A stretch of DNA of 34,592 nucleotides from the NCBI GenBank assembly GCA_003223215.1, contig QHYH01000205.1, positions 3,436 to 38,027 of the forward strand, in the 5' to 3' direction. Of the stretch, positions 1 to 20,502 are shown piece after piece. Every line of letters starts with the position of its first letter. Position 1 is the first letter of the stretch. The notes below the pieces were generated by a model that ran no database searches, was not told the DNA's origin, and saw nothing but the letters and a program-made list of their open reading frames with translations. A program made the position numbers and the translations under genes. The stretch is from Acidobacteriota bacterium (GTDB lineage Bacteria; Acidobacteriota; Terriglobia; Acidiferrales; UBA7541).

Positions 1-609
1 AAACTGTTGCGAGCCCCCTCGGGGTTGAAGCGAGTGCCATCCTCACCGCTTCGCCCCGAGGTGATTCGGCTTGTGATCGTGCTCTTGTTCACGACCGGAA
101 TTCGGCGTGGGGAGCTGCTGCGCCTGACCCTAGGCGACTACAACTGCCGGGACTTGACCTTGCTGATTCGAGAGTCGAAATTCCACAAGTCACGCCTGCT
201 CCCTCTCAACGATGATATTGCCGAGGAGATGGATCGCTATCTGCGCGCCCGAGCCCAGCGGAAACTTCCCATTTCCCCGGAAACGGCCCTCATCTCGAAC
301 GCCAACAAGGGTGGACGAGCTTACAGCGGCAGGTACCTGCAACTCTGTCTACGGTCCCTACTCCAACAATGCTCCATCTTCACGCCACAGGGGAAGCTGC
401 CGCGGATCCATGATGCTCGGCACAGCTTCGCCGTCAACGCACTGCTGCGCTGGTACCGAGAGGGCGCCGACGTCGGAGCCAAACTCCCTTTGTTGGCCAC
501 CTATATGGGGCACGTCGAGCCGCTCCGAACGGCCGCCAGCGAAAGATTCGCCCGGCACTATGGCGAGCTGGTTGTGGCCGTGCCGGGCCGGAAAGGAAGG
601 CAGCGATGA
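1..609 (+). CDS. RIT1 RitB, tyrosine recombinase, 5'-partial and lacking the catalytic Tyr
   Basis: This is the C-terminal catalytic half of a phage-integrase-family tyrosine recombinase; the frame is open from base 1, so the N-terminus lies outside the window. Visible active-site positions are Arg I in TGIRRGEL, a Lys in SKFHKSR, HxxR in HDARHSF and the His in YMGHVE. After MGHV the sequence jumps straight to EPLRTAASERFARHYG. The segment that holds the nucleophilic Tyr in relatives (for example GHVNLSGTQHYL in the RIT3 RitB of this window) is missing, which fits an in-frame deletion of a dozen or so residues. The protein may still bind DNA but should not cleave it. The stop overlaps the start of ritC by four bases, indicating translational coupling. 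Confidence 0.85.
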   Translation, partial: KLLRAPSGLKRVPSSPLRPEVIRLVIVLLFTTGIRRGELLRLTLGDYNCRDLTLLIRESKFHKSRLLPLNDDIAEEMDRYLRARAQRKLPISPETALISNANKGGRAYSGRYLQLCLRSLLQQCSIFTPQGKLPRIHDARHSFAVNALLRWYREGADVGAKLPLLATYMGHVEPLRTAASERFARHYGELVVAVPGRKGRQR

Positions 610-1619
610 AGAGGAAACTTCCCAACCTGCTAGGCGCCATACTTCGCGATTACTTCACCGACCACCTACCACGCCTTCGCGGGATAAGCCCGCACACCAT
701 CCACAGTTACCGCGACAGCCTTGTGCTGCTTCTGCGTTTTCTCTCTGCGCGCAGCAAGCGACCCGTGGCGGAACTCGACTTGAAGGATCTGGACCCACCG
801 GGAATCCTTACGTTTCTCTCTTACCTGGAGCAGGAACGTAAAAACGGAGCAGCAACACGAAACGTCCGGCTCTCCGCCATTCATGCCCTGTTTCGTTTCG
901 TGGCTTCGCGGAACCCAGAGCATCTGGACCTGGCGCAACGGGTTCTCGGCATCCCCTTCAAACGTGCACCGCAACGCGCCATCGATTACTTGGAGTATGA
1001 AGAGATCGAATCGATTCTGAAAGCGATCGATCGGACCAACCTGCAAGGAACCCGCGACTACGCTCTCCTGGCCACGATGTTCAATACCGGAGCCCGTGTG
1101 CAAGAGATCGCCGATCTACGGGCCTGTGACCTCCAACTGACCAAGCCCTTCCAAGTGAAACTGTTCGGTAAAGGGAAGAAAGAGCGCTACTGTCCGCTGT
1201 GGCCGCAAACCGCCGCGGTCTTGCGAGCTTTCGCGACGGAACGGAATCTGGATTTGCGGTCAGAAGTGTGCGTCTTTCTGAATCACCATGACCAACCCTT
1301 GACCCGGTTCGGTATCCGCTACATCCTTGCCCGGTGTCTTGCCCGTGCTTCCCGGGATGTTCCCAATCTCCGCAAGAAGCGGCTTCACCCTCATAGTATG
1401 AGACACAGCACGGCGGTAGCGCTGCTGAAGTCCGGGAACGACCTATCGACGATCGCCCACTATCTGGGGCATGCCAACCCGACCACGACGAATCGATACG
1501 CGAAAGTGGATCTGGAGATGAAACGTCGCGCGATCGCGCGGGTCAAACCAGTTCCGCGCCAGTCGCGCACACCATGGAGCAGAGACGCCACCATCCTCGA
1601 TTGGTTGGAGTCCCTTTAA
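606..1619 (+). CDS. RIT1 RitC, tyrosine recombinase (XerC-like)
   Basis: Full-length tyrosine recombinase of 337 residues. The N-terminal SAM-like core-binding domain (about 10-115, with HTIHSYRDSL) is followed by the catalytic domain. Active-site residues are visible: Arg in TGARVQEI, Lys in GKGKKERY, HxxR in HSMRH, His in LGHAN and the nucleophile in TTTNRYAK. The C-terminus ends in ILDWLESL, a tail also seen in the RitC proteins of RIT2 and RIT3 here. The ATG overlaps the ritB stop. It acts in the cytoplasm as the third subunit of the trio recombination complex; which subunit cleaves which strand is unknown. Confidence 0.93.
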   Translation: MKRKLPNLLGAILRDYFTDHLPRLRGISPHTIHSYRDSLVLLLRFLSARSKRPVAELDLKDLDPPGILTFLSYLEQERKNGAATRNVRLSAIHALFRFVASRNPEHLDLAQRVLGIPFKRAPQRAIDYLEYEEIESILKAIDRTNLQGTRDYALLATMFNTGARVQEIADLRACDLQLTKPFQVKLFGKGKKERYCPLWPQTAAVLRAFATERNLDLRSEVCVFLNHHDQPLTRFGIRYILARCLARASRDVPNLRKKRLHPHSMRHSTAVALLKSGNDLSTIAHYLGHANPTTTNRYAKVDLEMKRRAIARVKPVPRQSRTPWSRDATILDWLESL

Positions 1620-1680
1620 GTCCCAAGAAATGTGGAGCTGGGAACCCAGAGAACCGCGATTTGTGGGGCTTTCGCGTGCC

Positions 1681-1709
1681 AACTTCACATTACTGACAAC
1701 TTCACATTA
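1681..1709. repeat. Paired 12-bp direct repeats at the RIT1 right end
   Basis: AACTTCACATTA occurs at 1681-1692 and 1698-1709, separated by CTGAC. A diverged copy in the opposite orientation (ATGTGGAGCTGG) lies near 1630-1641. They abut the point where the primase frame breaks and probably are recombinase binding sites of the RIT1 end. Multi-repeat termini of this look also occur at IS21-family ends, but no istAB genes are present here. Confidence 0.6.
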
Positions 1710-2333
1710 GGAGCCGGGGAGGAACCGATGAGCGAAGGCCGCAGTGATGCTGCGGCCGTAGAGGTTGACGACGTGTCCACGCCGATGACAGGGGAAGATG
1801 ATGCGCTGATAGAAGGCGTCGCAGCCGTGTGCATTGATCAGACCGAGACGCCGTAGCAGATCGCAAGAATAGCCTTGAGCGGTGAGATGCCGGCGCAAAC
1901 TTCCGCCAGGGGCGTAGCCGATGCGCAGTTCTTGGATCGCGGTGGGATCGTACAGTCCGCGTTGCTTCAGATAGCAAAGCGCTTCGGGGTAGCGATCGAG
2001 TTGCTGTTGATAAAAAGCGGCGGCTTGCTCGAGCGCGGCGGTGGGATCGGCTGGAGGAGCACTGTGCTGCTGGAGGTAAGCGAGGCTTTGACGGAAGGAC
2101 AGCTGGCGGGACAACTGAACAAAGCGCAGGAGATCGCCGCCCTGACCACAACCGTGGCAGTAGAAGAGATTTTTGCGGGCGTTGACATAGAAGGAGGGAC
2201 GGGTTTCCGGGTGCAGGGGACAGAGTCCGACGAACTCGGGGCCATGACCAGCAGGCCGGAGGACCCAGTTCTGCTGCCGCAAATAATCGAGCAGTGAAAG
2301 GCGCTGTTTGAGTTTTTCGAGATCCTCGCCCAT
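1707..2333 (-). pseudogene. CHC2 zinc-finger DNA primase-like protein, truncated by RIT1
   Basis: The 208-residue product begins like DnaG-type primases. It has a CHC2 zinc finger (C38-x2-H41 and C59-x2-C62, in GLCPLHPE and FYCHGCGQGGD), then a helical linker and the start of the primase core (LYDPTAIQELRIGYAP, RIIFPCHRRGHVVNLYGRS). Frame and homology end at HRFLPGS, directly at the repeat-bearing RIT1 end, so the Toprim catalytic half is absent. Proteins of this kind that I recognise are mobile-element primases rather than the housekeeping DnaG. It reads in the same direction as the DUF6431-like gene 80 bp upstream, which suggests a two-gene module. If RIT1 inserted here, the missing C-terminus should lie left of the window. 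Confidence 0.8.
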
Positions 2334-2412
2334 GGCGCTGTCGCCTCTGGATGTGAACGTAGGCGAAGGGGGTCAGCATTCCCAGGCAAGGATGGTGGGT
2401 GGAAACATTTTC

Positions 2413-2868
2413 TCAGCAACGCAAAGGCCAGAGGATTTGCAGAACCGGACTCACCCAAGATAAAGGCCCGGCTTGAGGATCAGCCGGAGCAGCGGGTGCC
2501 AGCCAGTGAGTGATGCGGGCGAGCGTTTGGCGGAGAAAGGAAAGAGCTGGTTGGGAGCGATCCAGTCCGTGGGCCCAGCGGCGAAGCGTGGAAGAATCGG
2601 GCACGCGATTCGGGTCTTTGAGTGTAGGCGTGGCTTCTTCCCAGGAATAGCGCTCCACAAAGCGCCGTCGCAATCCCTGACAGCGCGCCAGCAAACTGTA
2701 GTGGGTGTATGGGAGAGAAAGCAGTGGAAGAAAGGTGAAGGTCTTCCCGCAACCAGTGCAGCGACCCCGACGGATCCCAATCCAGTCGTGATGCGCATCG
2801 TGGGCCTGCTTTCGGCGACGTCCATGCCCGATGATCAAATCGCGTCCACAAGCAGGGCATCGCCGCAC
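2413..2868 (-). CDS. DUF6431-like zinc-binding protein
   Basis: A small protein with two CxxC pairs near the N-terminus (CPAC at 4-7, CTGC at 37-40) around GHGRRRKQAHDAHHDWIGIRRG, followed by FLPLLSLPYTHYSLL. I recognise this as the DUF6431 type found beside mobile primases and recombinases; its function is unknown, and the paired Cys suggest nucleic-acid or zinc binding. The GTG at 2868 gives 151 residues. The frame stays open upstream to about 2950 (FIPLCVPAHKLETEWAES), with no ATG in that stretch, so the true start may be further upstream at an unusual codon. It is followed on the same strand by the truncated primase. Confidence 0.65.
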   Translation of the reverse strand: MRRCPACGRDLIIGHGRRRKQAHDAHHDWIGIRRGRCTGCGKTFTFLPLLSLPYTHYSLLARCQGLRRRFVERYSWEEATPTLKDPNRVPDSSTLRRWAHGLDRSQPALSFLRQTLARITHWLAPAAPADPQAGPLSWVSPVLQILWPLRC

Positions 2869-2953
2869 GATGTCGTCGGCGCAGCTCTCGGCCCACTCTG
2901 TTTCGAGCTTGTGTGCCGGGACGCAAAGTGGGATAAACAGAATCGTAACTCAT

Positions 2954-3010
2954 GGAGCTCTGCACTCCCCGGCGTTGACCTGCCAAGATCTGAGCCGGAA
3001 GCAGAGCTCC
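2954..3010. repeat. Perfect 10-bp inverted repeat (stem-loop) upstream of the DUF6431-like gene
   Basis: GGAGCTCTGC at 2954-2963 is exactly inverted as GCAGAGCTCC at 3001-3010, with a 37-nt loop. It could be the end of the primase/DUF6431 module or an operator; the sequence alone does not decide. From 3011 to 3182 I see no gene; that stretch should contain the promoter of the next gene. Confidence 0.5.
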
Positions 3011-3182
3011 TTCCGCCTTAAAAAAAATCCAACTGGAAGAGAATACCGCTTCTCGGCTATCGCTTTTCAGGGGTGTGATTCAAAAGATTGGCCGCTAATA
3101 AAGGACTTAGCAGGGAGAAACCACGAAACTCTTTGCCGAGAATTGTCGAGCGTGCCAATGGATTCGCGTATACAGTGCCCAT

Positions 3183-3805
3183 ATGCGCCCTATTTGTTTC
3201 GCAACGGTGCTAGGTCTCTCCCTTGCCCTTGCGGCGATAGCTCAGGATGTCGCGCACGAGCCCAAGGTCAGTAGCGAATCGTTGACCAAGGAACAGGTCA
3301 TCGTTTATCGCGCTGTCCTCCAGGATTTTCTAAAGGATTCTACGGACACGCTCAAGTTAGCAAACACGACCGAACCGATAGAGGAGACCGCTGGCCTTTT
3401 ACTCGCGGATGTCCCAAGACATCCTCGTCCCCCGTTCCCGACGCTTCGGCTTTGGTTGTACATCATATGGACTCTGCAGTGGCACTGAATTTAAAAATCG
3501 ACCTCGTTGACCCCCATCGTCAGGAAGAGAAAATCAAGAATGGTGACCCTGCAATCCTTATGAAGAAAGTCATCAACGACGGCGAAAGCGTACCACAAAA
3601 AGAAATAGATGATGCGACTGAACAGGCCGTTAAGAACGGGTTGTTCACGCTTTCTGAGATTATCTTCAACAAACAACATGACCGGGCCTTAGTTAGCTAC
3701 AGCTTTGTTTGCGGAGAGCTTTGCGGGCAGGGCCGCCTTCTGCTTCTCAAGAAAGTGGGAGGAAAGTGGAAGATTCACAAGACTTGCCAGGAGTGGCTTA
3801 GGTGA
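3183..3805 (+). pseudogene. Secreted hypothetical protein, frameshifted
   Basis: The first part (3183-about 3410) encodes a signal peptide (MRPICFATVLGLSLALAAIAQ) and a mature start with LTKEQVIVYRAVLQDFL. The second part, in another frame (open from about 3404, stop at 3805), continues with TSSSPVPDASAL and ends in TLSEIIFNKQHDRALVSYSF, two Cys and LLLKKVGGKWKIHKTC. The C-terminal pattern (HDRALVSYSF, then KVGGKWKI) looks like a beta-rich secreted domain common in soil bacteria. A single indel near 3395-3410 would join the parts. Function is unknown; no lipobox is visible. Confidence 0.65.
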
Positions 3806-7208: not shown

Positions 7209-8327
7209 TTACAAGCGTAAAGCACTGGCCAGCACCGGCTGAAATTTCCCCTGACTCGAAGCGATGTTGCGCAAACGATCCATCAGTCGCTGGAACAATC
7301 CGCGCTCCGGATACTGATCGCTATAGCTAATGCCCACTCGCCCGGCGTGCCGCCAGATCTTGGCTGCTACAAAGAGAAAACGCAATCGCGCTGTCACCAA
7401 CGTCGTGTGCTTCAGATCATTGGCTTGCACCTTTTCTTCCCGGTTGAAGAGCAGCAGCCAGCAGTTCAGGTTGTAAGCCAGCATCGCCAACTGGAAATGC
7501 ACGCAGTTGGCAGCCCACTGCTCGGAAGGGTGCGCTGCCAATCCAGCGTCGTTGTTGGCTTCCTTGATCAAGTTCTCGGCACCGGCTCGCTGGTTATAAA
7601 CCCACACCAGCAGGTCGATGGGCCCCTTCATGTTCGTCACAAAGACTCGATAGATGTACTTCGGGGTATCAAACAGCTGATACTGCGGTTTGGGAGTCTC
7701 GTCCTTTTTCAGGTAGCGCAGAGCGATGAACCGATAGGCCTTCCCCCAACCCTCGGGCTGATACTGAAACTCGCATTGTTCATCGGCATCCGTCTTCGGC
7801 GAGGGCCTCCAGTGGGCCTTTTCTAGCTCTTCGAGCAAACGCGGGGTCTTGCGCGCCACGATGATTACGCTTGGACAGCATCCCAACAATAGAACCCAGC
7901 ATCAGCCCGTGCGAAAATTCTGCGCACGCAACGGGGCACGGCGGCAAAAACGGCCTCGAGATGGCGCGCAATCTGCGCTCCCGTGGGCCGATCTCCGTTG
8001 CGCAACTCACCGCCGATATATTCCCGGGTCTCGGCGACAAAGGTAAGAATCGGCTGGTAGCTCTTCTTTCCTTTATTCTTCGGGTTGTAGCTCTTGCGCG
8101 CCCCCATCTGCCGACCGTAGAGAGTGTGCACCGTCGTATCGGTATCGAGAGTAATCGAAGGCAGTCGTACGTTCGCTGCTTCCCAAACTCGTTCCCGCAG
8201 CAGGCGCTGCAGCTTCAACAGTTGCTGGGCGACGGTCACTGGCAAGGAGGTCAAGAAACGCCAGAAGGTACATTGCGGTGGTAACGTCCCCACCTGCAAG
8301 ATTCCCGTCAGCATCGGATCCTGGGCC
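7209..8327 (-). pseudogene. IS1380 transposase, catalytic and C-terminal part
   Basis: The minus strand from about 8327 reads QDPMLTGILQVGTLPPQCTF, then the DDE core: first Asp in ITLDTDTTVHT, second Asp in FARADAGFY. Near 7870-7885 the frame changes, and the protein continues as VIIVARKTPRLLEELEKAHW to the stop at 7209, including the likely catalytic Glu in RAGAENLIKEANND. Between AVQA and VIIVARKT a few residues expected in the family are absent, so a small deletion probably caused the shift. The N-terminal part lies beyond RIT2 at 12289-12651 and joins in frame at FVA|QDPM if RIT2 is removed. Confidence 0.88.
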
Positions 8328-8423
8328 ACGTATCTTGAGAAGAAAATTATCCAGAGTTCTTTTTCAAGGACGGCCTCAGAGCGCGTCCAGATGCACTGAG
8401 ATTCTTCTTTCTGCTCCCGATAA
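8324..8423 (-). repeat. RIT2 terminal inverted repeat, ritC side
   Basis: Starts at GGCCACGTATCTTGAGAAG and runs toward ritC. The outer 50 or so bases match the other RIT2 end (12160-12268) almost perfectly in inverted orientation. The inner 45 bases, including a TCTCA-TGC-TCTGGAC pattern, match imperfectly. Confidence 0.85.
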
Positions 8424-8432
8424 TAACGTGGC

Positions 8433-9443
8433 TCAAAGTGTCTCGAGGAATGCGAGCAGCTTCGGCGAAGCGCGCCAGTGGCGATGCCCCTGTTTCGCAA
8501 GGCCAGCTCGCTTCCAGAAGGCCTGGAGCGCATTGCGCTTCATTTTGAGGTTGGTCGCGATGTATCGGTTGGTCGTGGCAACCGATGCATGCCCGAGGTA
8601 ATCCCGAATAACGGAGACATCCATGCCCGCCTGCAATAGCCCTACCGCGCTCCCATGGCGCATCATGTGCGGTGTCACATGGCGACCCTGGAGGCTTGAC
8701 CGCGTTTCCGAAGCGCGCCGAACATACTTGCCCAGCAAGAAAGCGACGCCATCCCGAGTCAGGGGCGCACCGCGGGCGTTCAGGAATAGGGGTTTGTCGG
8801 TGGCACTGGTTTTCACTAGCCGACGGAGGGCCGCAGCCGTCTCCGGCCACAGTGGACAGAGACGCTCTTTGCCTCCCTTACCCAAAAGTCGAACCTGCCG
8901 GGGACGATCCAGTCGGAGCTGCCGAGGGTGGACACTGAGAGCTTCACTGACTCGAGCCCCAGTGTTGTACAGGAAAAGGAGCAAGGCTCGATCGCGCGCC
9001 GCAAGAGGTGTTCGCTCTTCTACGGCGGCGATGATGGCACGGGCCTCCTCTGGTTCCAGATAGCTGACGACGCGGGCGGCCGCCCGTTTGGAGGGAATCG
9101 CTAGGATGCGACCGTACTGATCAGCACGTGCGATATCGTGTCGGAGGAGGTGTTGGGCGAAGCTTCGGAGAGCCGCAAGACGAGAGTTCCGGGTCGTGGC
9201 AGAATTCCCCCGTTCGGTTTCGACATGGCCCAAGAAGCTGAGCACGGCTTCGGCCTGGATATCATTCAGACTCAGTTCTGTTATCGACCGGCGCTTCCGG
9301 TCGGCGAGGAATAAGAAAAAAAGCTTGAGTGCGTCACGATAAGCACGGATGGTATGGGCGCTGGCTCCTCGGACGCTTCCCAGATAATCGCGGAAGAAAC
9401 TCTGTACCAAAGCTAACAGGCTATCGTGGATTGATCGGGTCAT
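8433..9443 (-). CDS. RIT2 RitC, tyrosine recombinase
   Basis: From the ATG at 9443 the product has 336 residues, the usual RitC size. That start is preferred over one at 9500 because GAAGGTG precedes it closely. A core-binding domain (AHTIRAYRDALKLF) is followed by a complete catalytic set: Arg in TGARVSEA, Lys in GKGGKERL, HxxR in HMMRH, His in LGHAS, Tyr in TTNRYIA. The C-terminus ends LLAFLETL, like the WLxSL tails of the other two RitC proteins. It overlaps the end of ritB by 23 nt. It acts with RitA and RitB at the element ends. Confidence 0.94.
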   Translation of the reverse strand: MTRSIHDSLLALVQSFFRDYLGSVRGASAHTIRAYRDALKLFFLFLADRKRRSITELSLNDIQAEAVLSFLGHVETERGNSATTRNSRLAALRSFAQHLLRHDIARADQYGRILAIPSKRAAARVVSYLEPEEARAIIAAVEERTPLAARDRALLLFLYNTGARVSEALSVHPRQLRLDRPRQVRLLGKGGKERLCPLWPETAAALRRLVKTSATDKPLFLNARGAPLTRDGVAFLLGKYVRRASETRSSLQGRHVTPHMMRHGSAVGLLQAGMDVSVIRDYLGHASVATTNRYIATNLKMKRNALQAFWKRAGLAKQGHRHWRASPKLLAFLETL

Positions 9444-10410
9444 GATCACCTTCGTCTTCATTGGCATGCAGATACCGAAGCCGGAACCGATGACCGGCAA
9501 GACCCAACAACTCCGGGGTGACGGTCAGGTAGGTCTCCGTCCCTAGGATGTCGTCGTGGCCCATGTAGGTGGAAAGCCAGGGAAGGCGGGCGTGCAGGTC
9601 GACCCCTTGGCGATACCAGCGGGTCAACCGGTGGACCGCGAAGGTATGCCTCCAGTCATAGGGCCGCGGTCCCACCCGGCCGCGCGCGGGCTTCAAACCG
9701 GCTTTCTGAAAGAGTTTTCGTAAAGTCTCCCACGCCGTGTTCTTCGGCAGGGTTCGGTGGTTGGCGCCAACAAAGAAATGATCATCGGATTGTGCAGCAG
9801 CAAAGAGGCGCCGAGCGCGGAGATATATTTCCAGCTCTCTCGCTAGCGAGCGGTCAAAAGGTACCCATCGAGCCCGTCCCTTGAACGTCTCGACAAAAAG
9901 AACTCGCGCAGGGACGTCGACATCTCGCATCCGCAGGCGGAGGGCTTCCCCAAAACGCAGTCCGGTGCAGTAGAGGAGCAAGATCAGGGCTCGGTACAGG
10001 CGCGGGCGAAATGGTGGCCGAGCCAGTTTCTTCGTGAGTTTCAGCAGTTGATGAACTTCTTTCTTCGACAAGATGTAGGGCAAGAAGTCGGACTTGCCCG
10101 GCAACTGGGGCCAGCGCGGCTCCGACAGGGAGGAATGGGCGGGAAGCCTGTGAAGATAGCGGCAAAACTGCCGCACTATCGTGGCGTCTACCGAGACGCT
10201 AATGGCCTTGCGCTGGGGCTTGCTGGCCAGCCAAGCGAGAATCGCTTGATCGAGACGCCAGCTTCGGTGTTTTCGTGCATATTTTTTGAGAAACCGATCG
10301 AACTCCCTCAACGTGAATTCGCTTTGCGCATATCGATAGCCGAGGCTCCGCTTGAATCGGAGAAAACCCTGGAGTTCGCGCGACAAAGGACTGTGGAACT
10401 GGGCTGTCAT
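9421..10410 (-). CDS. RIT2 RitB, tyrosine recombinase
   Basis: 329 residues. An N-terminal core-binding domain (EFTLREFDRFLKKYA) is followed by a catalytic domain with Arg in TGLRFGEA, Lys in TFKGRARW, His in YMGHDD and Tyr in GTETYLTV. The usual HxxR His is replaced by Tyr (PYDWRHTFAV); this looks like a subfamily variation rather than damage, since the flanking motif is intact. RWYRQGVDLHARLPWLSTYMGH is the typical RitB stretch, also seen in RIT1 and RIT3. Its ATG overlaps the ritA stop by four bases, indicating coupled translation. Confidence 0.93.
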   Translation of the reverse strand: MTAQFHSPLSRELQGFLRFKRSLGYRYAQSEFTLREFDRFLKKYARKHRSWRLDQAILAWLASKPQRKAISVSVDATIVRQFCRYLHRLPAHSSLSEPRWPQLPGKSDFLPYILSKKEVHQLLKLTKKLARPPFRPRLYRALILLLYCTGLRFGEALRLRMRDVDVPARVLFVETFKGRARWVPFDRSLARELEIYLRARRLFAAAQSDDHFFVGANHRTLPKNTAWETLRKLFQKAGLKPARGRVGPRPYDWRHTFAVHRLTRWYRQGVDLHARLPWLSTYMGHDDILGTETYLTVTPELLGLAGHRFRLRYLHANEDEGDHDPINPR

Positions 10411-11663
10411 CGAGGCACCGGTAAAGCTACCTGGCGCAATCGCCGCAGGGCCACTCGGACGTACACGGAAGTAGAGGAAGGTCGGCGATGGCCCAAGATG
10501 TCGCCAACCACCTTCGGGTTGACGCCGGCATCGATCTGCCGAGTCGCGTGACTGTGGCGAAACACATGTGCACCAAGTACAAGTGCGTCGACTCCGGCTT
10601 GGCGAGCATAGAGACGGACGCGCTGACGGATGGCACTGCTGGTGAGTGGCGTGTAGGGTATTGTCGAGTTCAAGAAAATTCGCCGCGACTGGACGTGAGA
10701 TGGACGTTCTGCCTGAAGGTAGACAGCCAACGCCTTGGCCACTGGAGGCAATAGCGGCAGCTCAATTTCCGCTTTGGTTTTTGGGCGCCTCACATGCAAG
10801 ATCTCCGACTTCCAATCCACATCCTCCAGATCCAAACCCAATACTTCCGCCGCTCCCAGCCCATAGGTGGCCATCAGCAATAACCAGGCGAAATCCCGCT
10901 TGCCCGGCGGCTCCTTCTGCTTAATCGATCCGAGGAGGCGGCGTACGTCCCCCCACGGGAGCGCCCGGGGCGGTCGCTCAGCCCCGCGGATGCGCGGCGA
11001 AGCTACACAACTGGCCAAGTCGCAGCGTAACCGCTTGGTGGTGTAGAGAAATCGTAGGAATGCTCGCAAGGAACTACAGTAATCTGCGACCGTCCCTTTA
11101 GAAAGGCGTGCCGACAGACGACTCACGAATGTGTCGATGTCGGCCACACTGGCTTTAGAGACTGATTTGCTTCCACCCGGCAATAGAGCGAGGAAGACCT
11201 TCGCTGTCTCGATGTCTTGCTGAACAGTCTTTTCGGCAACTCCATAATGAGAGCAGCGGTACTGTCGGTAGGCTGCTAACAACGGCGTCAGTTTTGCAGG
11301 TGCTCTTGGCGGACGCCATTCCGAAACTGGGACCTGCAGCGCACATAGTGCCCAGGCCCAGGCGTGAAGGGCATGCTGAGCAACAAAACATGTGGACGGA
11401 GCGACTGGTCCTTTTGTGAGCGGGCCGACATAGGCATGCAGGAACCGTCTTAGTCCATCAAGGGTTAGTTGGGAGGTTTCTTCCAGGTGGCGTCGTCGGC
11501 AGTAGGCGCGGAATCGCCGGACCCAATAGAGGTAAATACCTACCACCCCATCGGAAATACGATTCTTTTTCCACAAACGGACTACCGCTTCTTCATGGTC
11601 TAAAGTGGAGCTGCCTGCAGTGCCGGGTTGACGGGCTTGCGCGGCTTTTTCGTTAGGGGACAT
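10407..11663 (-). CDS. RIT2 RitA, tyrosine recombinase with Arg I replaced
   Basis: 418 residues: a longer N-terminal region with two core-binding-like segments (about 35-115 and 135-220), then the catalytic domain. HxxR (HVFRHSHAT), the second His (LGHRRP), Lys (RPKTKAEI) and Tyr (STSVYVRV) are present. The segment that normally carries Arg I reads YGLGAAEVLGL, with Gly where RIT3 RitA has Arg (LGLRAGDI). Loss of Arg I normally cripples cleavage, so RitA may be mainly structural. The start overlaps the upstream Cys-rich gene by 11 nt and the stop overlaps ritB by four. Confidence 0.92.
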   Translation of the reverse strand: MSPNEKAAQARQPGTAGSSTLDHEEAVVRLWKKNRISDGVVGIYLYWVRRFRAYCRRRHLEETSQLTLDGLRRFLHAYVGPLTKGPVAPSTCFVAQHALHAWAWALCALQVPVSEWRPPRAPAKLTPLLAAYRQYRCSHYGVAEKTVQQDIETAKVFLALLPGGSKSVSKASVADIDTFVSRLSARLSKGTVADYCSSLRAFLRFLYTTKRLRCDLASCVASPRIRGAERPPRALPWGDVRRLLGSIKQKEPPGKRDFAWLLLMATYGLGAAEVLGLDLEDVDWKSEILHVRRPKTKAEIELPLLPPVAKALAVYLQAERPSHVQSRRIFLNSTIPYTPLTSSAIRQRVRLYARQAGVDALVLGAHVFRHSHATRQIDAGVNPKVVGDILGHRRPSSTSVYVRVALRRLRQVALPVPR

Positions 11664-12102
11664 GCTTTATCTCAGCAAGAGCGCCTATCCAGCGCGCTCG
11701 GCATCCGCAAATCTCGCACACGACCCAGCTCCACGCGCGTTCTGCTCCGGGCGAGAGCCAAGGTTTACTTGGTGGAGGAGCCTCGACGAGCTCTAGAGCC
11801 GGAGGCGCAGCAAGCCTCGCATAGGAGGAAGGATGTGAGGAAGCTTGATCTGTCACGCGGGCTTTCAAGCGTTGGAGATACTCGCGCTGGCGAATGCGAT
11901 GATCCTCACGCCCTTCGGCACCGAGACTCTGCTCATAACGGCGATTGGCTTTTTGACGCTGCAGGCGACGGGCTTCTCTCCAGCAGTTTGAGCTGCAATG
12001 TCGCTGGCCGCGATAACAGTGGCAGCAAATGTGAAACACCCTACCGCAGGGAGGATAGTGACAAACGAGCTGGTAAAAGACGGTGGAACAGGCAGTCAGC
12101 AC
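11653..12102 (-). CDS. Cys-rich accessory protein of RIT2
   Basis: 149 residues. The N-terminal 50 hold seven Cys after the first few residues (C14, C19, C26, C27, C29, C36, C40) in a pattern CxxxxC...CCxC...CxxxC, followed by a basic, helical segment (REARRLQRQKANRRYEQSL, DHRIRQREYLQRLKAR). It resembles a family of small putative zinc-binding proteins I associate with mobile elements; no function is established. Its stop overlaps ritA and it lies inside the RIT2 inverted repeats, so it is part of the element and probably co-translated with RitA. The first codon (GTG) is uncertain. It may be a DNA-binding or regulatory subunit; that is inference. Confidence 0.7.
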   Translation of the reverse strand: MLTACSTVFYQLVCHYPPCGRVFHICCHCYRGQRHCSSNCWREARRLQRQKANRRYEQSLGAEGREDHRIRQREYLQRLKARVTDQASSHPSSYARLAAPPALELVEAPPPSKPWLSPGAERAWSWVVCEICGCRARWIGALAEIKHVP

Positions 12103-12159
12103 GCACCTTAGTTTAGTTAGGAGGGGGCACTAGAGAACGTGGGCCGATCATGCCACAGA

Positions 12160-12268
12160 CGAAGAGCAATTATCTGGAGCACGAAGGCGGGTCTCACTGC
12201 GTCTGGACGGCCTCGAGGCCATCCTTGAAAAAGAACTCTGGATAATTTTCTTCTCAAGATACGTGGCC
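12160..12268 (+). repeat. RIT2 terminal inverted repeat, ritA side
   Basis: The inverted copy of 8324-8423: the outer part (12217-12268) ends CTTCTCAAGATACGTGGCC, and the inner part is diverged. It also encodes, by chance, a read-through tail to the truncated IS1380 transposase N-terminus. Confidence 0.85.
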
Positions 12269-12294
12269 TTATCAAGAGCTCGAGATAAGGCCAC
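12263..12294. repeat. 32-bp near-perfect palindrome at the RIT2 end
   Basis: GTGGCCTTATC at 12263-12273 is inverted as GATAAGGCCAC at 12284-12294 around AAGAGCTCGA. It spans the outer edge of the right inverted repeat and the flanking GGCCACG. It is best read as the linker that would sit between the two element ends in an excised circle. Confidence 0.75.
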
Positions 12295-12651
12295 GAAACG
12301 AAGATGGTTCAGCCGAGAGAAACCCACGTAGATGGCCAGCACCATCCCCAGCAAGAATTGGTAGATGGTCATCGCGCGCGGAATGCGGTGAATGGTCAGA
12401 GTTTCTTCAATCAGTTTCTTAAAGCCCAGCTTCTCCAACATGGTCGATACGGGGAATAGACCACCATACGGCGTAAGATTCTTGGCCCCGAAGTCAAAAG
12501 GCGTGGAAGCCGCAATTTTATAGGGCTCCGGACTATCTGCAGGAAAACCTTGTTTGGCGCGGGTTTTCTCGATATGCTGCTTTTCGTTCTTCACCATTTG
12601 GGTGACCCCTTGAGGTTGAGTTCGTAAAACCGGGAAGTTTCGCGAACTCAT
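12289..12651 (-). pseudogene. IS1380 transposase, N-terminal part
   Basis: Contains FDFGAKNLTPYGGLFPVSTM, LGFKKLIEETLTIHR, MTIYQFLLGMVLAIYVGFSR and LNHLRFVA, the typical start of IS1380 transposases. Genuine sequence ends at FVA, where RIT2 begins; the downstream frame runs through the RIT2 inverted repeat to 12148. The ATG may be at 12597 (MVKNEKQHIEK) rather than 12651. Confidence 0.85.
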
Positions 12652-18220: not shown

Positions 18221-19197
18221 CGCTCGACCCTCCGCGGAATGACGTCACCAAAGGCTGCGCCCGCTCGTGCCGTAATCTCGGGAAAAAGTTCGGCGGTAAG
18301 ATGAAGGTAATGCTGAGTCCCGGAAAGATTCACATGCCCGAGGTAGGTCGCCAGAAGAGGAAGTTTGGCATTCAGATCCTCACCGTCTTGGTACCACCGT
18401 CGTAAGGCCTGAACAGCAAATTGGTGACGTGCGTCGTGGATCCTGGGCCCCTTGCCTCGGCCGCCGTGAGAAATTCCACACTGCAGCAACAGTTGACGAA
18501 ACAGCGTGTAAACGGTGCGTAAGCTGAAGGGCCCTCCATTTGGTCTCGGGAAGAAGATTGCATCGGGCGGGCGTTTTTCAAAATGGGCAGCGTACTTTCG
18601 CAAGCGGTTTACGAGGGGCAAGGCGGGGGGAACCAAGCGATCTTTGCGGAATTTCGCCTGGCGTACCGTGATGATGCCTTGATTCAGATCGACGTCTCGA
18701 ATGCGTAGTTTCAGCACTTCTCCGGCACGGAACCCGCAGCCATACAGGAGCCGAAAAACTTCCGGCATAATAAGATGCCGCAAAGGCGAACGCGCCGTAG
18801 GCTCGAGGGCGTCCACGGCCCGGAAGAACTTTCGAAGCTCTTCGTCAGTCAGCATTCTGGGCACGAAAGTTGATCGGTTTCGAGTTGCTAATGTGAAATC
18901 GGGCACATACGCGGAATGGCCGAGCCGCAACAAAAAGCGAGAGAATTGCCGAGTGACAGTGATCCTTTGCTGGTGGGTTGCCGCACTTTCGTGGGCTTTC
19001 TTTGCTAACCATTTCCGGGCGACAGAGCCAGGTAACTCTTGGATCGTGAGTCCCTCCTGCACCAAAAAGTCGTCGAGGCGCCGCAAGATTCGAGTCGCTT
19101 CATGATAGGCGTACCCACAGGCATGCTTTTCTTGAAGAAATTTCTCCATGCAAGGAGTTAGAACGCTTTGGAACCTGTTGGATGAATCAGCTGGCAT
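18217..19197 (-). CDS. RIT3 RitB, tyrosine recombinase
   Basis: 326 residues with intact active site: Arg in GCGFRAGEVL, Lys in QAKFRKDR, HxxR in HDARHQF, His in YLGHVN and Tyr in GTQHYLHL. It is similar to the truncated RIT1 RitB (PRIHDARHxFAV, KLPLLATYxGHV), and serves as the reference showing that the RIT1 copy has lost its Tyr segment. Its start overlaps ritA by 11 nt and its stop overlaps ritC by four. Confidence 0.94.
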   Translation of the reverse strand: MPADSSNRFQSVLTPCMEKFLQEKHACGYAYHEATRILRRLDDFLVQEGLTIQELPGSVARKWLAKKAHESAATHQQRITVTRQFSRFLLRLGHSAYVPDFTLATRNRSTFVPRMLTDEELRKFFRAVDALEPTARSPLRHLIMPEVFRLLYGCGFRAGEVLKLRIRDVDLNQGIITVRQAKFRKDRLVPPALPLVNRLRKYAAHFEKRPPDAIFFPRPNGGPFSLRTVYTLFRQLLLQCGISHGGRGKGPRIHDARHQFAVQALRRWYQDGEDLNAKLPLLATYLGHVNLSGTQHYLHLTAELFPEITARAGAAFGDVIPRRVER

Positions 19198-20443
19198 GAT
19201 TCACCTCGTCTAGATTCAATGCCACACCCCGCAAAGCTTCTACATCCGCCTTGGCGTAGATACGTGTTGATTCCAAACTGGTATGACCTAAGATCTCCGC
19301 GATGGTCGGAAGCGGCGTCCCCTTTTCTAGAAGCCGAGTCGCTAAAGTATGGCGAAGCGAATGGAGACCGCGCTTTTGTGGGCTCCGAAAGGTGATCCTC
19401 GCTAGCAGGCGCCAATACTTAACAATGTGGTGCAGATGGTTGTTTTCCCTGAAAGGATCAAACGGCGGGTTCACCTTGAGAAATACCTCTCGGTGTGTCG
19501 TTTGGGGACGGCCCGACTTCAAGTAGTCAATCAGAGCCTCACCGACCTCGCTGGTCAAAGGCAGAGTCAATGGCGTGCTTGTCTTCGCTTGCGTGATTTC
19601 TATGGTCGACTCCGCCCAACGCAGGTTATCCAGTTTGAGTGTGCGAATATCCCCAGCACGCAATCCCAAGCGGCATGCCAGTAAGAGGATGGCGTAATCT
19701 CGCTTCCCTTTTGCAGAACTGCGATCGACCGCACCCAGAAGCCGGACGATGAGTTCCTGATCCCACACCGAAGGAATCGTTGCATCTCTGGGAGCACGGA
19801 TTTTCGGCAACTCCGCACTGAGATCTTTTTGCAGAATCCCACGCATGGTGAGGAACCGGAGAAAAGAACGCACATACGATACAAGTCCCCTAACCGTCCC
19901 TGGCCTCAAGTGATCTCTACAGGACACGAACTCGGACAGATCCGCCGCCTGAATTTGGTCCAGTGTCCGCGCTTTCCTGGAATGGAGAAAATCTAAGAAG
20001 ATTGTCAGTTCTGTGGTACACCGCTGAAGGGTCGATGGTCGAAGATGGAGCCGATCCTCACAATACTGCTCGTAATCACGAAGTGTGTGCTGCATGGTCG
20101 GGACAAGATGGATTGCCTGCACCTCCGTCACTGCTCGTTGAATGCGCCCGGTCGTACCGAACTCGGCAAGCACCTTTACGCTGAACGCCACATGCCGACG
20201 CCTGCCATCGCCCGGCCCATCCACCTGCTCATCCCTGACGCGATACTCCTCCAAAAAGCGTGCCACCAAATCCGCTGAAAATTCGTTTCCCAGGTTCTTC
20301 TGGTGGGAAAATTCGATGAGGTGTTCCCAGATTGCTCGATACCGATTCCGTGATCTCCTGCTGTAGCCCAGCCGTTCGATTTCGACCACAGCGTCAGCGA
20401 CGAGTCGCCCCAGCTGCAAGTTTTCCGAATGGGTTTCTTCCAT
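19187..20443 (-). CDS. RIT3 RitA, tyrosine recombinase
   Basis: 418 residues with the long N-terminal region typical of RitA, and a complete catalytic set: Arg in LGLRAGDI, Lys in QAKTSTPL, HxxR in HSLRH, His in LGHTS, Tyr in TRIYAKAD. GAGGAGG lies about eight bases before the ATG at 20443. It keeps Arg I, unlike RitA of RIT2, and is only distantly similar to it, so the two elements are of different lineages. Confidence 0.94.
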   Translation of the reverse strand: MEETHSENLQLGRLVADAVVEIERLGYSRRSRNRYRAIWEHLIEFSHQKNLGNEFSADLVARFLEEYRVRDEQVDGPGDGRRRHVAFSVKVLAEFGTTGRIQRAVTEVQAIHLVPTMQHTLRDYEQYCEDRLHLRPSTLQRCTTELTIFLDFLHSRKARTLDQIQAADLSEFVSCRDHLRPGTVRGLVSYVRSFLRFLTMRGILQKDLSAELPKIRAPRDATIPSVWDQELIVRLLGAVDRSSAKGKRDYAILLLACRLGLRAGDIRTLKLDNLRWAESTIEITQAKTSTPLTLPLTSEVGEALIDYLKSGRPQTTHREVFLKVNPPFDPFRENNHLHHIVKYWRLLARITFRSPQKRGLHSLRHTLATRLLEKGTPLPTIAEILGHTSLESTRIYAKADVEALRGVALNLDEVNHAS

Positions 20444-20502
20444 GACGAACCTCCTCTGTAACGTGCGGCTCCATGGCCACCGAGGAGTGCATCATGAAAT
20501 CT

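Follow-up and report, generated by a model that had tools for sequence, protein, structure and literature searches.

Based on sequence comparison, we conclude that the cysteine-rich gene directly upstream of ritA in the RIT2 element did not originate as part of a RIT; it would be a 5' accessory gene of IS21-type elements that was captured, with its leader, by an ancestor of RIT2. The element is located in a window of 34,592 nucleotides, the whole stretch of Acidobacteriota DNA that was analyzed.

RIT2 occupies positions 8324-12295 (minus strand) and contains three adjacent, co-oriented tyrosine recombinase genes with short overlaps: ritA (10407-11663; PF00589, 1.6e-25), ritB (9421-10410; PF00589, 2.9e-20) and ritC (8433-9500; PF00589, 2.4e-32; start codon uncertain), all on the minus strand. 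The overlap is 4 nt for ritA/ritB and depends on the choice of the ritC start for ritB/ritC. The terminal inverted arms are 54 nt long and 98% complementary, and are found at 8324-8377 (plus strand, ritC side) and 12215-12268 (minus strand, side of the cysteine-rich gene), with 27 more bases, including a second core-like site, up to 12295. A heptamer, GGCCACG, is present at both ends of the element (8324-8330 and 12289-12295). At the end next to the cysteine-rich gene (12260-12295) a core-like site occurs twice, as CGTGGCC and, in the opposite orientation, as GGCCACG; on the ritC side only one was seen. The target is an IS1380-family transposase gene, with its 5' part at 12296-12651 (minus strand; NF033539, 2.7e-09, below cut-off) and its 3' part at 7865-8323 (minus strand; PF13701, 5.1e-15). 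When the flanks outside 8324-12295 are joined and the heptamer is counted once, a single open IS1380-family transposase frame results, which places the cysteine-rich gene inside the RIT insertion.

RIT elements are described as three overlapping genes of ~3,500 bp, with a case of insertion into the transposase gene of another transposon; a 28-9 bp inverted repeat and a palindrome were all that was judged convincing there (PMC3414803). RIT2 shares the adjacent overlapping tyrosine recombinases A, B, and C and the discrete insertion, with inverted ends, into another gene, in this case also a transposase gene. It differs in its length of 3,972 bases and in carrying a fourth gene, on the 5' side and probably derived from IS21, and we therefore class it as a RIT variant. 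No match to istA or istB was found within the window, so that RIT2 as a whole does not qualify as an IS21 element; it has three tyrosine recombinases instead. Nor does it qualify as a gamma-mobile-trio, as RitC, which scored highest of the three recombinases against GmtY, reached 21.9 bits where the NCBI cut-off is 340.

The cysteine-rich gene (11653-12102, minus strand) starts with GTG and encodes a protein of 149 amino acids. It shares 11 nt with ritA and lies between the two inverted arms. The preliminary description of this DNA was correct in proposing a real gene on the same strand as ritA and inside the inverted repeats. Homologues at 48 other loci, the retention of the eight family cysteines and the open frame at the equivalent place in a second RIT copy (L003) indicate that the reading frame is more than a chance occurrence. 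An antisense open reading frame of 162 amino acids was rejected as a gene; it is interrupted by stops at the corresponding place in L003. The conserved cysteines form two sets (C14, C19, C26, C29, C36, C40 and C129, C132), all of which are present in the window copy. The second set, an additional CxxC close to the C-terminus, was missed in the preliminary description, which had proposed a cysteine-rich protein with a basic helical tail. The cysteines are confirmed; the basic helices, in a moderate-confidence model, are central (residues 41-59 and 62-87) rather than a tail.

The gene is found at the matching place in one further RIT. A scan of the genome collection for relatives returned two loci, L003 and L004, the first of which is an Acidobacteria MAG (the G540 matches represent the same DNA and were counted once). 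L003 is 82% identical to RIT2 over ~3.8 kb of DNA, and the cysteine-rich proteins are 74% identical. As in RIT2, the gene overlaps ritA by 11 nt and lies inside the element, with RIT end sequences at both outer sides, beyond the gene. The L003 flanks, which were not joined, have the appearance of a single interrupted gene with no relation to IS1380. The same position inside the ends of an insertion into a different target gene indicates that the gene travels with this RIT lineage. The L003 recombinase genes are frameshifted, which may reflect either decay or an assembly error, and its cysteine-rich protein lacks one conserved cysteine (C26 to R).

To the extent that two separate insertions with the same ritA overlap can be taken as membership, the gene belongs to RIT2, as had been claimed, and the constraint on its N-terminal half agrees with this. 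Between the window and L003, dN/dS for the N-terminal 90 codons is 0.27, comparable to ritA and ritB (both 0.26; ritC 0.18), versus 0.70 for the C-terminal 59 codons and 0.41 for the gene as a whole. For this gene alone the differences over the three codon positions (23/20/31) are not significant (p=0.27). In five pairs of IS21 loci dN/dS of the cysteine-rich gene ranges from 0.17 to 0.35.

Within RIT elements in general, the gene is rare. Of the 24 distinct RitA loci compared, each with 500 bp or more of upstream DNA and some with only part of the trio, two have it inside the element, the window and L003; the weaker RitA matches L070, L071, and L072 were left out of this count. The preliminary description had proposed to score how often homologues lie directly upstream of a ritA of the YGLGAAEV type; L074 carries this motif and lacks the gene. 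The other nearest RitA relatives with upstream DNA, L194 (motif YGLGAGEV) and the partial L076, lack it as well. No such gene is present within 1 kb upstream of the RIT3 ritA (19190-20491), as had been noted before, or of the RIT1 ritA on the window's contig. Four RITs on plasmids (L093-L096), from four plasmid records examined out of 49, likewise have none. The window also contains a partial CHC2/Toprim primase-like gene related to that of L004, preceded by a DUF6431 gene (1702-2379 and 2413-2868, minus strand); the rest of the primase is matched at 1309-1785 of contig C234, with RIT1 between and two recombinase frames beyond, which suggests that an element with a primase and two recombinases has been interrupted by RIT1.

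The family is found mainly outside RITs. With the window protein or a 17-row alignment as query, the genomes with a match numbered 6/89 for the taxonomic family, 13/297 and 23/396 for the phylum, and 16/220 for the class, in overlapping sets that also contain the genome of the window. Pooling the distinct matches and adding L003, L004, and L138, a locus on a viral contig, gives 49 loci, the window's locus included. Each was assigned by same-strand profile matches up to 1.6 kb downstream, in the order RIT (RitA without istA), primase, istA/istB, any tyrosine recombinase. By this rule 32 loci precede istA/istB (several of these are broken copies), two a RIT trio, two a CHC2-primase/recombinase element (L004 and L039) and one another recombinase. 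In the remaining 12 nothing was recognized, in four of them with a contig end within 1.6 kb. These counts (32/49 IS21, 2/49 RIT) led us to reject exclusive RIT membership, and they argue against an added recombinase subunit integral to RIT elements. The preliminary description had itself named a homologue survey as the test of that proposal, and the homologues proved to lie mainly away from RITs.

Several loci deserve separate mention. L185, counted among those with nothing recognized, is followed at a distance of 857 bases by a gene with an integrase domain, which escaped the profile. In L185 (758-5241) and L188 (3764-9341) the cysteine-rich genes are close to large tyrosine-recombinase-like genes. 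Those of L188 are GmtY/GmtZ-like, with scores far under the cut-off, and the gene perhaps precedes a gamma-mobile-trio-like element there; L185 has a gene that resembles, by eye, one located after istB in IS21 copies. Capture and nested insertion could not be told apart in L185 and L188, and neither was counted as a capture. A second member of the family in the window's own genome (L021, 8432-9001, contig C145) has no recognized transposition gene within 1.6 kb downstream. In L190 (4148-5779, minus strand) the gene and istA form an in-frame fusion, to which we attach little weight as the IstA C-terminus looks broken. In L016 an extra gene without a confident Pfam match is located 3' of istB (62-478, minus strand), and similar ones are seen by eye in L014.

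In a group of IS21 (istA/istB) elements, the cysteine-rich family forms the first gene and is often coupled to istA; in one example, L017, both NF033546 and NF038214 score above cut-off. The spacing between the gene and istA, for which start codons were chosen by the analyst, is -14 to +14 nt in 14 of the 23 IS21 loci examined; in L020, L046, and L137 istA is farther away, by 0.7 to 1.2 kb. Three of four IS21 loci tested (L016, L019, L036) have perfect terminal repeats of 43-45 nt that enclose the gene, and no terminal repeats were seen in the fourth, L038, which is on a short contig. When the L036 IstA was used as query against the 89 genomes of the family, all six matches at E <= 1e-80 (in four genomes) were at loci with the cysteine-rich gene; as this query is itself linked to such a gene, the result shows only that close relatives keep it. 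The single locus in the viral collection, L138, adjoins istA/istB, and a tblastn search of plasmids with three family members gave no match.

Phylogenetic analysis associates the RIT copies with a specific group of IS21 genes. In an unrooted tree of 33 rows, from which rows with a profile E above 1e-20 were left out and L131, L138, and L047 were removed, the two RIT genes pair at 100/99 and form a set with the IS21-linked L013, L036, and L184, also at 100/99, with inner forks at 94/89 and 86/80. An earlier unrooted tree of 31 rows without L184 agrees (92/95 and 89/83).

The DNA upstream of the gene points to the same relatives. In L003 it matches the interior of the IS21 leader of L036 (155 bp, 72%, 2e-15) and L013 (92 bp, 84%, 6e-22), and the match starts within the IS21 terminal repeat. 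The leader contains an 11-bp hairpin, of which all 11 pairs are present in L003. Over 19 aligned leaders, 86.6% of cells are paired, versus about 50% or less when slid, and cells changed on both sides number 28 versus 9.7 in shuffles. The number of further pair types, one of five covariation measures, was no better than shuffled (16 vs 15.4). In L188 and L189 the hairpin is poorly formed or missing, and Rfam at the gathering threshold reported only a tRNA across five loci. In the window ~54 nt of the leader is left (12103-12156, minus strand) and the hairpin is lost. This remnant aligns with the leaders of L003 and L013 with a score of 38, against shuffled maxima of 24 and 26 (0/300 shuffles each); the alignment with the L036 leader is not significant (9/300 shuffles).

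The junction with the following gene is likewise comparable, with a stop/start overlap of 14 nt between the cysteine-rich gene and istA in L013 and L036 and of 11 nt in both RITs. Sequence relationship, a shared leader (in the window a remnant only) and stop/start coupling to the first transposition gene thus assign the window gene to the IS21 5' accessory family. While relationship, leader and position can be read directly from the sequences compared, a transfer from IS21 to RIT is the simplest direction that we infer from the unrooted trees, the leader and the distribution, with two RIT copies known.

Neither Pfam nor NCBIfam gave a convincing match for any scanned member of the 5' gene family, the window protein included, and PHROGs likewise contains no convincing family for the window protein. 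In PHROGs, one unnamed family was matched weakly by 4 of 17 members (best 4.1e-05) and two more unnamed families by two members and one member. A structure model shows strands within residues 6-37, the helices at 41-59 and 62-87, a low-confidence stretch at 89-122 and a strand at 135-146. This model is weak (4 sequences, mean pLDDT 69.7, pTM 0.51), too weak to judge the fold, and gave no useful fold match (best Foldseek E 1.6, best VIA-align Z 3.6); a profile search of PDB sequences gave none. The two conserved cysteine sets and the basic helices between them make it most likely that the protein binds zinc and nucleic acid. We predict an accessory or regulatory nucleic-acid-binding protein, co-expressed with the first recombinase. 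Since one family precedes both DDE and tyrosine recombinase genes, a RIT-specific catalytic role is unlikely, and the loss of most of the leader from the window copy weakens the case for regulation through the leader.

The explanation that we favor as reasonably probable, taken as a whole, is that the captured IS21 5' gene now acts as a general accessory or regulator inside RIT ends. The gene, part of its leader and the coupled start junction would have been acquired by an ancestor shared by RIT2 and the L003 element, and since then the gene would have been carried between RIT ends. L184 may illustrate how such a capture begins: a different RIT trio (25-3530) has inserted there into the istA of an IS21 element with the cysteine-rich gene. 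As the stop of the cysteine-rich gene overlaps the RitA start much as it overlaps the IstA start in the closest IS21 relatives, translation of the main recombinase is probably coupled to that of the cysteine-rich protein. The protein itself would then be a general accessory or regulator of whichever element encodes it, with no role as a RIT-specific recombinase subunit, and may set the expression of the first recombinase or bind the DNA or the leader of the element.

A serious rival, though in our estimate rather unlikely, is that the capture was accidental and that the gene has been kept since RitA needs the ribosomes from its frame, the protein itself doing little. The conserved 11-nt overlap, the relaxed C-terminal part and weak constraint on the whole gene, the missing cysteine in L003 and the 22 of 24 RitA loci without the gene inside the element are all in line with this, but the N-terminal 90 codons are constrained like ritA and ritB, and the window copy retains its eight cysteines. 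That the protein is an integral RIT recombinase subunit, working directly with RitA, RitB, and RitC, appears improbable. The location inside the ends in two insertions, co-oriented with and overlapping ritA, would fit such a role, and the title of PMC5385486 refers to four genes essential for recombination in GInts. Like RIT2, GInts have an operon in which a small fourth gene accompanies three tyrosine recombinases; however, by the descriptions on which this comparison relies, ginD is the last gene of ginABCD and is said to resemble TnpC (PMC5385486), whereas the RIT2 gene is cysteine-rich and precedes ritA, so that RIT2 does not have the GInt layout. The predominance of IS21 DDE transposases as partners and the many RitA loci without the gene also argue against this reading. 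Trio elements in C. metallidurans are described with a fourth, putative regulatory gene as well, of the TetR family (PMC2864759), in contrast to the cysteine-rich, probably IS21-derived gene of RIT2; this comparison, too, relies on the description. Finally, the RIT could simply adjoin an IS21 remnant through nested insertion, as is the case in L184, where the gene is located outside the RIT ends, 337 bases from the nearer one. In both the window and L003, by contrast, the gene is enclosed by the RIT end sequences, the window flanks form one open frame and those of L003, though unjoined, look like one split gene, and this already disfavored possibility can be considered very remote.

Within the favored reading of a captured general accessory gene, one may tentatively go further and regard the leader and the gene as a portable control cassette for transposons of unrelated chemistry, the protein recognizing its own leader or host machinery, although we hold this more doubtful than the capture explanation itself. 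The gene is found before DDE IS21 transposases, a RIT trio and the CHC2-primase/recombinase elements; the leader of L039 carries the IS21-type leader motif, and that of L004 does not align there. Because it precedes both DDE and tyrosine recombinase systems, its role is likely to be general, such as expression control or recognition of the element or the host. Transposon accessory genes are usually seen as part of one transposition machine; if a portable cassette exists, the cysteine-rich protein would serve whichever transposase gene is located downstream of it. In the literature searched, which was partial and mostly without subscription papers, we recognized no description of a cysteine-rich gene before istA. 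The results point to a 5' accessory gene of IS21 elements for which the libraries searched contain no family model, and its presence in RIT2 would provide a specific example of mobile elements with unrelated mechanisms exchanging a gene.
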